Shown: positions 12,099 through 16,861 of the stretch, in pieces
Layout of the letters: each line of letters begins with the position of its first letter
Position numbering within the stretch: position 1 is the stretch's first letter
Origin: Planctomycetales bacterium
GTDB taxonomy: Bacteria > Planctomycetota > Planctomycetia > Isosphaerales > Isosphaeraceae
DNA: 64,000 nt
Direction: 5' to 3'
NCBI GenBank assembly: GCA_027451885.1
Contig: DAIDHX010000093.1
Coordinates: forward strand, 1 to 64,000
Notes under the pieces: generated by a model
What the model saw: the letters and a program-made list of their open reading frames with translations, nothing else
The model's database searches: none
Told to the model about the DNA's origin: nothing
Made by a program: the position numbers and the translations under genes

Positions 12099-13904
<1,806 letters not shown>

Positions 13905-14681
13905 TCAAGTTTTGCTGGTGGTTGGAGAGCGCAACAATGGTGCGACGTATTTTCTAAGAAACCTCGGCGAATCCGTTCCAAGATGACCGCCGAAGTGACC
14001 CGCGGCGGCCATGGACGGACGCCAGCCGACATGCCGCAAACGCTTGTAAGCATGCCGCGCGTCTCCAGTCGACTCCTTGGGCGCCTGGAACCGCACGAGC
14101 CCCGCGCTTGCGCTTTTGACCCGGTCGATTGTGCCGAAGATTTGCGTACCTGCGCCGAGCACGATCACGTCCAGCGGCGACCAGAAGACGAACACGTCGC
14201 CACGCACGGCCTGAAGCGCCTGCGAAAGGTCGTAAGTTGGGGAAAGCGCAGGGGCGAGTAAAACCACGGATTCGACCGTTTGTGGGGGAAGCTGCTCGAG
14301 GGCGCGGACAATCACCCCGGTGCCGCCGGATTTGCCGACCAGAAAAATGGGTGCGCTGGGATGTTGGGCGGCGAACATGGCAACCGTCTCAGTCGCCAGT
14401 CTGGCCATGCGATCGCGATTGCCGACGTCGGTGAGATCCTTGTACCAACGTCCAAGGCCGTGCCCCCAGCGAAGGTTTTCGAACGCGTATGAAAACCCCT
14501 CGGCTGCGAGTGCGTATTGCAGCCCGACGGCGCAGAGATCGGGCCCGCCGACGCCATCGGCAACGAGCACAAGTCCCTGGGGATGTTCGAACTCCCAGCG
14601 CGAGTGCCCGAGCTCCTCCAGCGGTGGACCGTAGAAGAGCCGATACCAGGGCTCGAAGATCGCGGCTGTCAGCAGGGACAT
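13905..14681 (-). CDS. Alpha/beta hydrolase
   Basis: The 258-residue protein has alpha/beta-hydrolase features: strand plus turn HPQGLVLVADGVGG, the nucleophile elbow FLVGKSGGTG (GxSxG with Ser), an acid strand VFVFWSPLDVIVLG and a His near the end in AAGHFGGHLG. No signal peptide is evident. The specific ester or amide substrate is unknown. ATG at 14681 is chosen, 10 bases behind the stop of the diadenylate cyclase gene; a start at 14720 would overlap that gene. The tight spacing implies translational coupling with the cyclase. Confidence 0.82.
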   Translation of the reverse strand: MSLLTAAIFEPWYRLFYGPPLEELGHSRWEFEHPQGLVLVADGVGGPDLCAVGLQYALAAEGFSYAFENLRWGHGLGRWYKDLTDVGNRDRMARLATETVAMFAAQHPSAPIFLVGKSGGTGVIVRALEQLPPQTVESVVLLAPALSPTYDLSQALQAVRGDVFVFWSPLDVIVLGAGTQIFGTIDRVKSASAGLVRFQAPKESTGDARHAYKRLRHVGWRPSMAAAGHFGGHLGTDSPRFLRKYVAPLLRSPTTSKT

Positions 14682-14691
14682 GAAGTCGACT

Positions 14692-15630
14692 TCACGCGGG
14701 TGCGGGTTCCGTCTCCACATCCTGCCACTTCATGGCGCGGGCGTGCCGCATGGGGGCAATTCGCAGGATAACCTCGCCGCCCTGGAAGAGCCGGACTGTG
14801 CCGTTGGACTGACTCACGACCACGGCGACTGCCTGTGTGGCCTCGGTGATGGCAGCCGCGGCCCAGTGCCGCGTACCCAGGCCCTTGGGTAGCGAGAGCC
14901 CGGTCACAGGCGCATCGATCAGGCGGCAGGCAGCCTCCACCGTACCGTCACGAGCGACTACGAATGCACCATCGAGCTGGGCGATTTCCTTGATGGCTTC
15001 TCGAACCCGTGGGTCGCGCAAGTTGCGTTCCTTGCGTTTGTAACCACGAAAGGGATCGAAGCCCAGCGGGCGCGTGCGGGCGAGAACCCTGCGTGCATCG
15101 CCCACGACGATCAGGCTGCCGACCGCCTTGCCCTCGCGCCCCTCGCGCCCGATTTCCACCGCCACGTCAACGACGGCCTTGAGCGTCTCGAAGGGAACCG
15201 ATGTCTCCAGCGCACGTAAGTCGCGCGAGGTCAGACGCTCAAGGTGCTCGCCCAGTCGAATGACGGTGATGGAGTCGAGATCGTCGACATCGAATCCCGA
15301 ATAGACGGCCACGACTCGAGCACCTGCCACGAGCATGTCGTTCGCCACGGCCTCAATGAGAGCCAGGCTGATGCGCTCGGCGATGGAGACCTCGGCGGGC
15401 TCGAGCTCGATGGTGGAAAACCCGGCCTTGCGGGCAGATTCGAGGTGGCGCTCGGAATCGGACGCCACGAGAATTCCGAGCCCGTCGCACTCCAACCGCG
15501 CGGACTCCCAGTCCATCGGGCTTTCGGGCAGAATCAAGACGCTGGCGGCGCCCAGTTTCCGCGCAAGCTCAAACGCGAGCACCAGCAAGGGTGGACACGC
15601 GGCAGCTCTGGTCAGGGCGCCTGGGGTCAC
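14692..15630 (-). CDS. Diadenylate cyclase (DisA_N domain), DacZ-like two-domain form
   Basis: The C-terminal half (about residues 150-290 of 312) is a DisA_N domain, the catalytic fold that makes cyclic di-AMP from two ATP. The DGA motif is at residues 220-222 (LDGAFVVARDGTVEAA). The second motif reads GLGTRHWAAAAITE at 251-264, so the canonical RHR is RHW. The N-terminal half (LVLAFELARKLGAASVLIL to VVAVYSGFDVDDLDSITVIRL) looks like the pyruvate-kinase C-terminal-like alpha/beta domain that precedes the cyclase in archaeal DacZ. No membrane segments (CdaA type) or HhH domain (DisA type) are present. The start is GTG with AAGGA 9 bases upstream. The hydrolase gene follows after 10 bases. Confidence 0.85.
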   Translation of the reverse strand: MTPGALTRAAACPPLLVLAFELARKLGAASVLILPESPMDWESARLECDGLGILVASDSERHLESARKAGFSTIELEPAEVSIAERISLALIEAVANDMLVAGARVVAVYSGFDVDDLDSITVIRLGEHLERLTSRDLRALETSVPFETLKAVVDVAVEIGREGREGKAVGSLIVVGDARRVLARTRPLGFDPFRGYKRKERNLRDPRVREAIKEIAQLDGAFVVARDGTVEAACRLIDAPVTGLSLPKGLGTRHWAAAAITEATQAVAVVVSQSNGTVRLFQGGEVILRIAPMRHARAMKWQDVETEPAPA

Positions 15631-15869: not shown

Positions 15870-16565
15870 CTACTTCTTCGTGGCTGCTTCGGTCTTCGCC
15901 GCGGGAGCTGGCGTCTCGGCCTTCTTGGCGGCCGGAGCACCCTTGGACTTGCGGATCTGCTGGATGTACTGATCGAGCATGCGCGCACGCTGATCGTACC
16001 ATTCCTTGAGGCCCGCGCTTGGATTCAGAATCCGCACGTCGTCGACGTAATTCACGCCTTCAATCTTGCCGTAACCCGTGAACCAGGCGGCGAAGACTTC
16101 CGGGCTGACGGCGTAGGGCTTCTTGGCAGAGGGGCCCTTGATCGCGCGGGCGTCGATCGCGCGGCCCGTGATCAGGATGTCAAGGATTGGGGGTGGATCG
16201 ATCGAGCTTTCCACGAGCCCTGCATCCTGAGCCGCCACAATGGCTTCCGCCACGGCCTTGCGCGCTGCCTCGAGCTTGGCTTGAACCTCGGGCGGGATCG
16301 GCGGTAGTGGCGCCTCCTTCGGTTCCTCCTTCTTGGGCTCTGCCTTCTTCGAGGCATCAGCCTTTGGTGCCGGCTCGGTCTTCGCAGCCTCGGCCTTTTT
16401 CTCGGCCGGAGCGGCCTTGGCCGGAGCCGCTTCCTTTGCCGTCGGTGCAGGCGCAGCCTTGGCTTCTGCTTTCTTTTCCTGCCCGTAGACGCCTTGTGTT
16501 TGTGCCAGGCCCAGCATCAGGGCTACGCACGCCGACAGCGACAATGAGACGAAACGTCGAACCAC
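15870..16565 (-). CDS. Exported Lys/Ala/Pro-rich protein
   Basis: GTG at 16565 is chosen because AAAGGAG lies 8 bases upstream and it begins directly at a signal peptide (VVRRFVSLSLSACVALMLGL, cleavage near VYGQ). Residues 30-90 are low-complexity EKKAEAK/APA repeats, likely a disordered spacer. A conserved-looking core follows (PPEVQAKLEAARKAVAEAIV, DILITGRAIDARAIKG, FAAWFTGYGKIEGVNYV, DQRARMLDQYIQQIRKSKG), then a second Ala/Lys-rich tail. I recognise no named domain. It is probably a periplasmic or cell-wall-associated protein. Confidence 0.78.
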   Translation of the reverse strand: MVRRFVSLSLSACVALMLGLAQTQGVYGQEKKAEAKAAPAPTAKEAAPAKAAPAEKKAEAAKTEPAPKADASKKAEPKKEEPKEAPLPPIPPEVQAKLEAARKAVAEAIVAAQDAGLVESSIDPPPILDILITGRAIDARAIKGPSAKKPYAVSPEVFAAWFTGYGKIEGVNYVDDVRILNPSAGLKEWYDQRARMLDQYIQQIRKSKGAPAAKKAETPAPAAKTEAATKK

Positions 16566-16861
16566 CAGCGGTTCTCCTTTCTGAATGCGACGGATTTCGT
16601 GCCGTTCCACGCCCCGGCGAGGAGCGTCCGTGCCAACCGCGCGGCCACAAGCGAACCAGGTCCGCACGAGACTCGCGGCCTACGAGGTTAATCAGTATGA
16701 TGAGAGTGTAACGGCAGTGCGCTGGCTTCGCCAGGGTAGCACCGGCAGGGAATCCGCGCGCCTGCTGATGAGTGGGGTCCGCCGATCCCGCCCTAGCGTT
16801 TGTCGATCCTCCACACGCCTGCGAAACGGCGTCCCACCTCACGAATCAGGGCGAGCGTACC

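Follow-up and report, generated by a model that had tools for sequence, protein, structure and literature searches.

The closest described relatives of the protein considered here are the soluble DacZ enzymes of haloarchaea (Haloferax volcanii HVO_1660; NCBIfam NF041371), in which an N-terminal domain resembling the C-terminal domain of pyruvate kinase (PK_C) is followed by a C-terminal DAC domain with DGA and RH motifs. The H. volcanii enzyme forms c-di-AMP in vitro with Mn2+ (PMC6741144). CdaZ/DacY of Methanocaldococcus jannaschii, an archaeal enzyme as well, has the same order of an N-terminal PK_C domain and a DAC domain according to its description in that work (PMC6741144). In the DAC tree of Braun et al. 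(2019), the DacZ/CdaZ branch also includes Planctomycetales (Planctomicrobium piriforme, Isosphaera pallida, and Rhodopirellula islandica), Myxococcales, and Gemmatimonadales, and a PK_C-like fold was predicted for the N-terminal domains of close bacterial homologues (PMC6741144). These Planctomycetales proteins come from the same phylum as the sequence studied here, and we liken them to it by that description. In the literature searched, we found no published assay of a planctomycete DacZ. Bacterial CdaA shares the DAC catalytic fold and the DGA and RH motifs, but it has a transmembrane N terminus, reads HDGA and RHR at the two motifs, and lies on a separate branch from the protein described below.

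The dacZ gene and its product

The window, i.e., the whole analyzed stretch of 64,000 nt from a Planctomycetales bacterium, encodes a 312–amino acid DacZ-type diadenylate cyclase on the minus strand (dacZ, 14692..15630). The gene runs from a GTG codon at 15630 to a TGA at 14692, with AAGGA located ~8 bases upstream of the start. We are highly confident that archaeal DacZ and this planctomycete protein are orthologues, which would make the latter a soluble diadenylate cyclase that forms c-di-AMP from two ATP. By analogy with its characterized relatives, the protein very probably makes this nucleotide. It is ~29 to 38% identical to DacZ of haloarchaeal Haladaptatus; it differs from haloarchaeal DacZ in having RHW where HVO_1660 has RHM and in the lack of mscS next to the gene, no mscS partner adjoining dacZ being found within the window.

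A Pfam search assigned residues 15 to 134 to DacZ_P (115.6 bits, E = 1.5e-33), a curated model titled “Probable sensor domain DacZ_P,” and residues 161 to 286 (14773..15150, minus strand) to the catalytic DAC domain (PF02457; 79.1 bits against a cut-off of 27, E = 2.5e-22). Both matches are far above chance. DACZ_N, a related archaeal model, matched weakly (E = 0.15), and a PHROGs search gave no match. The DGA and R-H catalytic motifs of DacZ/CdaZ diadenylate cyclases are both present, at the positions in the 312-residue minus-strand frame given by the earlier sequence-only reading: DGA at residues 220 to 222 (14965..14973, minus strand), in which D and G are almost constant across the family, and RHW at residues 254 to 256 (14863..14871, minus strand). 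The dacZ product is the sole canonical DAC protein of the genome.

Predicted structure of the N-terminal domain

The N-terminal region that holds DacZ_P (residues 1 to 145; 15196..15630, minus strand) is predicted to be a PK_C-like α/β domain and a putative sensor; the Pfam and pyruvate kinase profile matches, the structural model, and the Foldseek search all point to it. A profile built from 35 planctomycete relatives matched the pyruvate kinase C-terminal domain over positions 11 to 113 (E = 3.1e-4), as well as DAC structures, and one relative matched Pfam PK_C itself at E = 5e-5, under the cut-off of that model. The AlphaFold2 model of the whole protein is globular α/β with a mean pLDDT of 88.7; over the DAC part, it matches structures of DisA and CdaA. 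When modeled alone, the N-terminal domain reached a pLDDT of 90.5. In a Foldseek search with this model, all 50 of the 50 PDB matches listed were pyruvate kinases, with a best E value of 1.2e-6 and TM-scores of ~0.54 to 0.66 by query length. PDB entry 9g69 was considered as a possible archaeal DacZ and set aside, its match being confined to the DAC part.

Family assignment

NCBIfam DacZ was by far the best model for the window protein (165.8 bits), compared with 31.4 bits for CdaA, 29.8 for CdaM, 26.7 for CdaS, and 26.5 for DisA. The CdaA score falls below the TIGR00159 cut-off of 188.8 and the DisA score below the NCBIfam cut-off of 201. The DacZ score is itself under the curated cut-off of 430 for NF041371, as expected, since this equivalog model was built for haloarchaeal orthologues; judged by score, the window protein is a relative of that narrow group and not a member.

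Archaeal DacZ sequences for comparison were taken from Haladaptatus plasmids, from the best 80 loci of a contig scan, all of them haloarchaeal, and from genomes sampled across the same archaeal phylum around a Haloferax genome; of the latter, 136 of 148 had a DacZ profile match at E ≤ 0.001. A tree was built from 84 DAC domains, with 11 CdaA-like loci among them; it did not include DisA and CdaS, which the family scores set apart. In it, the window protein grouped with archaeal DacZ. All DacZ sequences came together with support of 93/91, and planctomycete and non-haloarchaeal DacZ with 97/92. Planctomycete DacZ formed one side of a branch supported at 89/78, within which the RHW clade had support of 100/97, and planctomycete CdaA-like proteins formed a single clade (100/99). 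The tree program warned of possible attraction between two sets of long branches, those of CdaA and those of archaeal CdaA-like sequences; the placement of the window protein is untouched by this. Residues D220, G221, R254, and H255 are kept in nearly all DacZ sequences.

The sequence-only reading had proposed a soluble protein with the architecture of DacZ rather than that of DisA, CdaA, or CdaS, and had suggested a structural model of the N-terminal domain and a tree with archaeal DacZ as checks. The architecture is backed by the Pfam and NCBIfam profiles, the structure search, and the tree, which also fit a soluble protein; the PK_C-like nature of the N-terminal domain was borne out by the sequence profile and the structure prediction, with no result that speaks against it, and the tree placed the protein with DacZ and away from CdaA in the set of families it covered.

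The RHW motif and rival readings of the protein

A change of the RHR motif to RHW could have removed cyclase activity and left a DAC-fold protein that only binds nucleotides. Replacement of the whole motif, RHR to AAA, abolishes the activity of Mycobacterium tuberculosis DisA; in that mutant, R and H are removed too (PMC3328451). In the window protein, R254 and H255 are retained and the change is confined to the third residue. That residue varied among the 68 planctomycete DacZ proteins compared (W in 39, E in 15, various others). The fixation of W in all 39 orthologues of the window clade and of E in a paralogue clade (7 of the 7 sampled members, from relatives in the same family) fits the loss of activity, as does the presence of a truly altered DAC-like protein in the same genome (see below). 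Across DacZ, R and H hardly vary. Archaeal DacZ sequences end the motif with M, V, L, I, S, A, or yet another residue; M is the one found in the three Haloferax species sampled, the lineage of the active H. volcanii enzyme. In addition, no replacement CdaA-like match was seen in 18 of the 20 other same-class genomes sampled. Since R and H are kept, the third letter varies, and the enzyme of an RHM lineage is active, we read RHW as a trait fixed in this lineage, at a motif position that is variable in DacZ, and not as evidence of inactivity. It is unlikely that RHW marks an inactive enzyme, and we give the catalytically silent protein as a whole only a very small chance.

Still less probable, to the point of being nearly negligible, is descent from a bacterial enzyme of the CdaA or CdaS type, with loss of the membrane segment and a similar N-terminal domain acquired by convergence. 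In favor of such an origin, the DAC domain does share the fold common to DAC proteins, and CdaA structures are among its matches. However, the family-specific scores and the tree set the window protein apart from CdaA, and the N-terminal domain is PK_C-like, as in DacZ/CdaZ. Moreover, a GREGREGK-like G(R/K/Q)-rich stretch and an NPF stretch are found in archaeal and planctomycete DacZ, the window protein included, and are missing from CdaA. An active DacZ remains the preferred reading.

Many relatives in the same family also carry a second DacZ_P-DAC paralogue, with RHE (L051 to L060 and L062 to L064); the genome of the window has the RHW protein only.

Distribution among planctomycetes

DacZ_P was detected in all 59 of 59 close relatives, including the genome of the window. 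In a phylum-wide draw of 294 genomes, 51 had it, among them all 21 same-class genomes listed. When the same 294 genomes were searched for DAC, 271 were positive. Outside the class, 244 of 273 genomes had a DAC match as strong as those of CdaA-like enzymes (E ≤ 1e-28). Inside the class, a match at this level besides DacZ was seen only in two genomes (G037 and G314). Two same-class genomes (G264 and G330) gave only weak DacZ_P matches, in frames of ~476 amino acids, and the one of these that was fetched (L067) encodes a PTS EIIA_2-DacZ_P-DAC fusion. Because DacZ_P occurs in all same-class genomes listed and a CdaA-level match only in G037 and G314, DacZ is, as far as gene content tells, the normal diadenylate cyclase of this planctomycete class, and the other classes mostly have CdaA-like enzymes.

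DacZ had been viewed beforehand as an unusual route to c-di-AMP in a planctomycete. This does not hold: DacZ is class-wide, planctomycete DacZ was published in 2019, and RHW is found throughout its lineage at a variable position. The window protein is of an already described kind, and the single gene adds little to published knowledge; what the class-wide view adds is that one planctomycete class uses DacZ where most sampled genomes from the rest of the phylum have a CdaA-like enzyme.

The fusion of a PTS EIIA_2 domain ahead of DacZ_P-DAC was seen in other planctomycetes (L041, L067, L068, and L069) and ties the cyclase to the sugar phosphotransferase system.

Gene neighborhood

An α/β hydrolase gene (13905..14681, minus strand) follows dacZ; its product matches Hydrolase_4 (E = 1e-9) and has a GKSGG nucleophile elbow. 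The gene starts 10 bases past the dacZ stop if its start is the ATG at 14681, which fits the starts of homologues; the longest open reading frame, from the ATG at 14720, would overlap dacZ. The two genes are probably on the same transcript. Further downstream lies an enolase gene (12099..13400, minus strand), and several genera retain it at this place. Among 20 fetched neighborhoods, the hydrolase was beside or near dacZ in six, all from the same family and with adjacency kept in some of its genera, and enolase was found in the same six (five genera). Neither gene was found near dacZ outside the family in these neighborhoods, so the link is local. Thus, of the coupling to the hydrolase proposed from the sequence, the 10-base gap stands with the ATG at 14681, and an association beyond one family does not.

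Upstream of dacZ, the window encodes a putative secreted protein that is rich in Ala, Lys, and Pro and belongs to no clear family (15870 to 16667, minus strand); it is found upstream of dacZ in 9 of the 20 neighborhoods; a tenth match lies 4.6 kb from dacZ.

Proposed mechanism

By analogy with characterized cyclases, two DAC domains of separate subunits would pair face to face, each with ATP and a divalent metal, to form c-di-AMP. The metal is Mn2+ in the Haloferax enzyme. D220 of DGA and R254-H255 would act as their counterparts do in DisA and CdaA, and the PK_C-like N-terminal domain may adjust the cyclase in response to a small ligand that it binds. For the window protein, activity, dimer formation, metal use, and ligand sensing are all inferred from relatives.

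The PK_C fold, the enolase gene near dacZ in several genera, and the EIIA_2-DacZ_P-DAC fusions suggest a speculative and rather doubtful extension, in which the PK_C-like domain would read a glycolytic metabolite and planctomycete c-di-AMP would report the status of lower glycolysis (phosphoenolpyruvate or fructose-bisphosphate). The order of the enolase gene counts for little here because it is inherited within one family. Which ligand the PK_C-like putative sensor of DacZ binds is a question shared with archaea, and planctomycetes are well suited to addressing it.

Predicted c-di-AMP turnover genes and a second DAC-like protein

Elsewhere in the genome (contig C311, locus L244, 172 to 2412, minus strand), a PgpH-type 7TM-HD phosphodiesterase is encoded, recognized by its 7TMR-HDED, 7TM, and HD domains. 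The PgpH type is a known kind of c-di-AMP phosphodiesterase, and this protein is probably the c-di-AMP hydrolase of the genome that would remove the product of DacZ. With this gene present, both synthesis and breakdown of c-di-AMP are plausible. The genome also encodes TrkA_C domains; such domains are among the known c-di-AMP targets, and these proteins are candidate targets here. No c-di-AMP riboswitch was found in the genome, a point against the preferred reading.

The altered DAC-like protein mentioned above is 493 amino acids long (contig C266, locus L002, 1477 to 2958, minus strand) and matches DAC at the borderline (27.1 bits against a cut-off of 27). It keeps DGA and has GARTLA in place of the G-x-R-H of active enzymes. 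Of 37 genomes of the family, including that of the window, 34 have a homologue, compared with 0 of 22 other same-class genomes. ARTLA is common to all ten homologues compared. The protein may be a conserved DAC-like protein that is not a cyclase.
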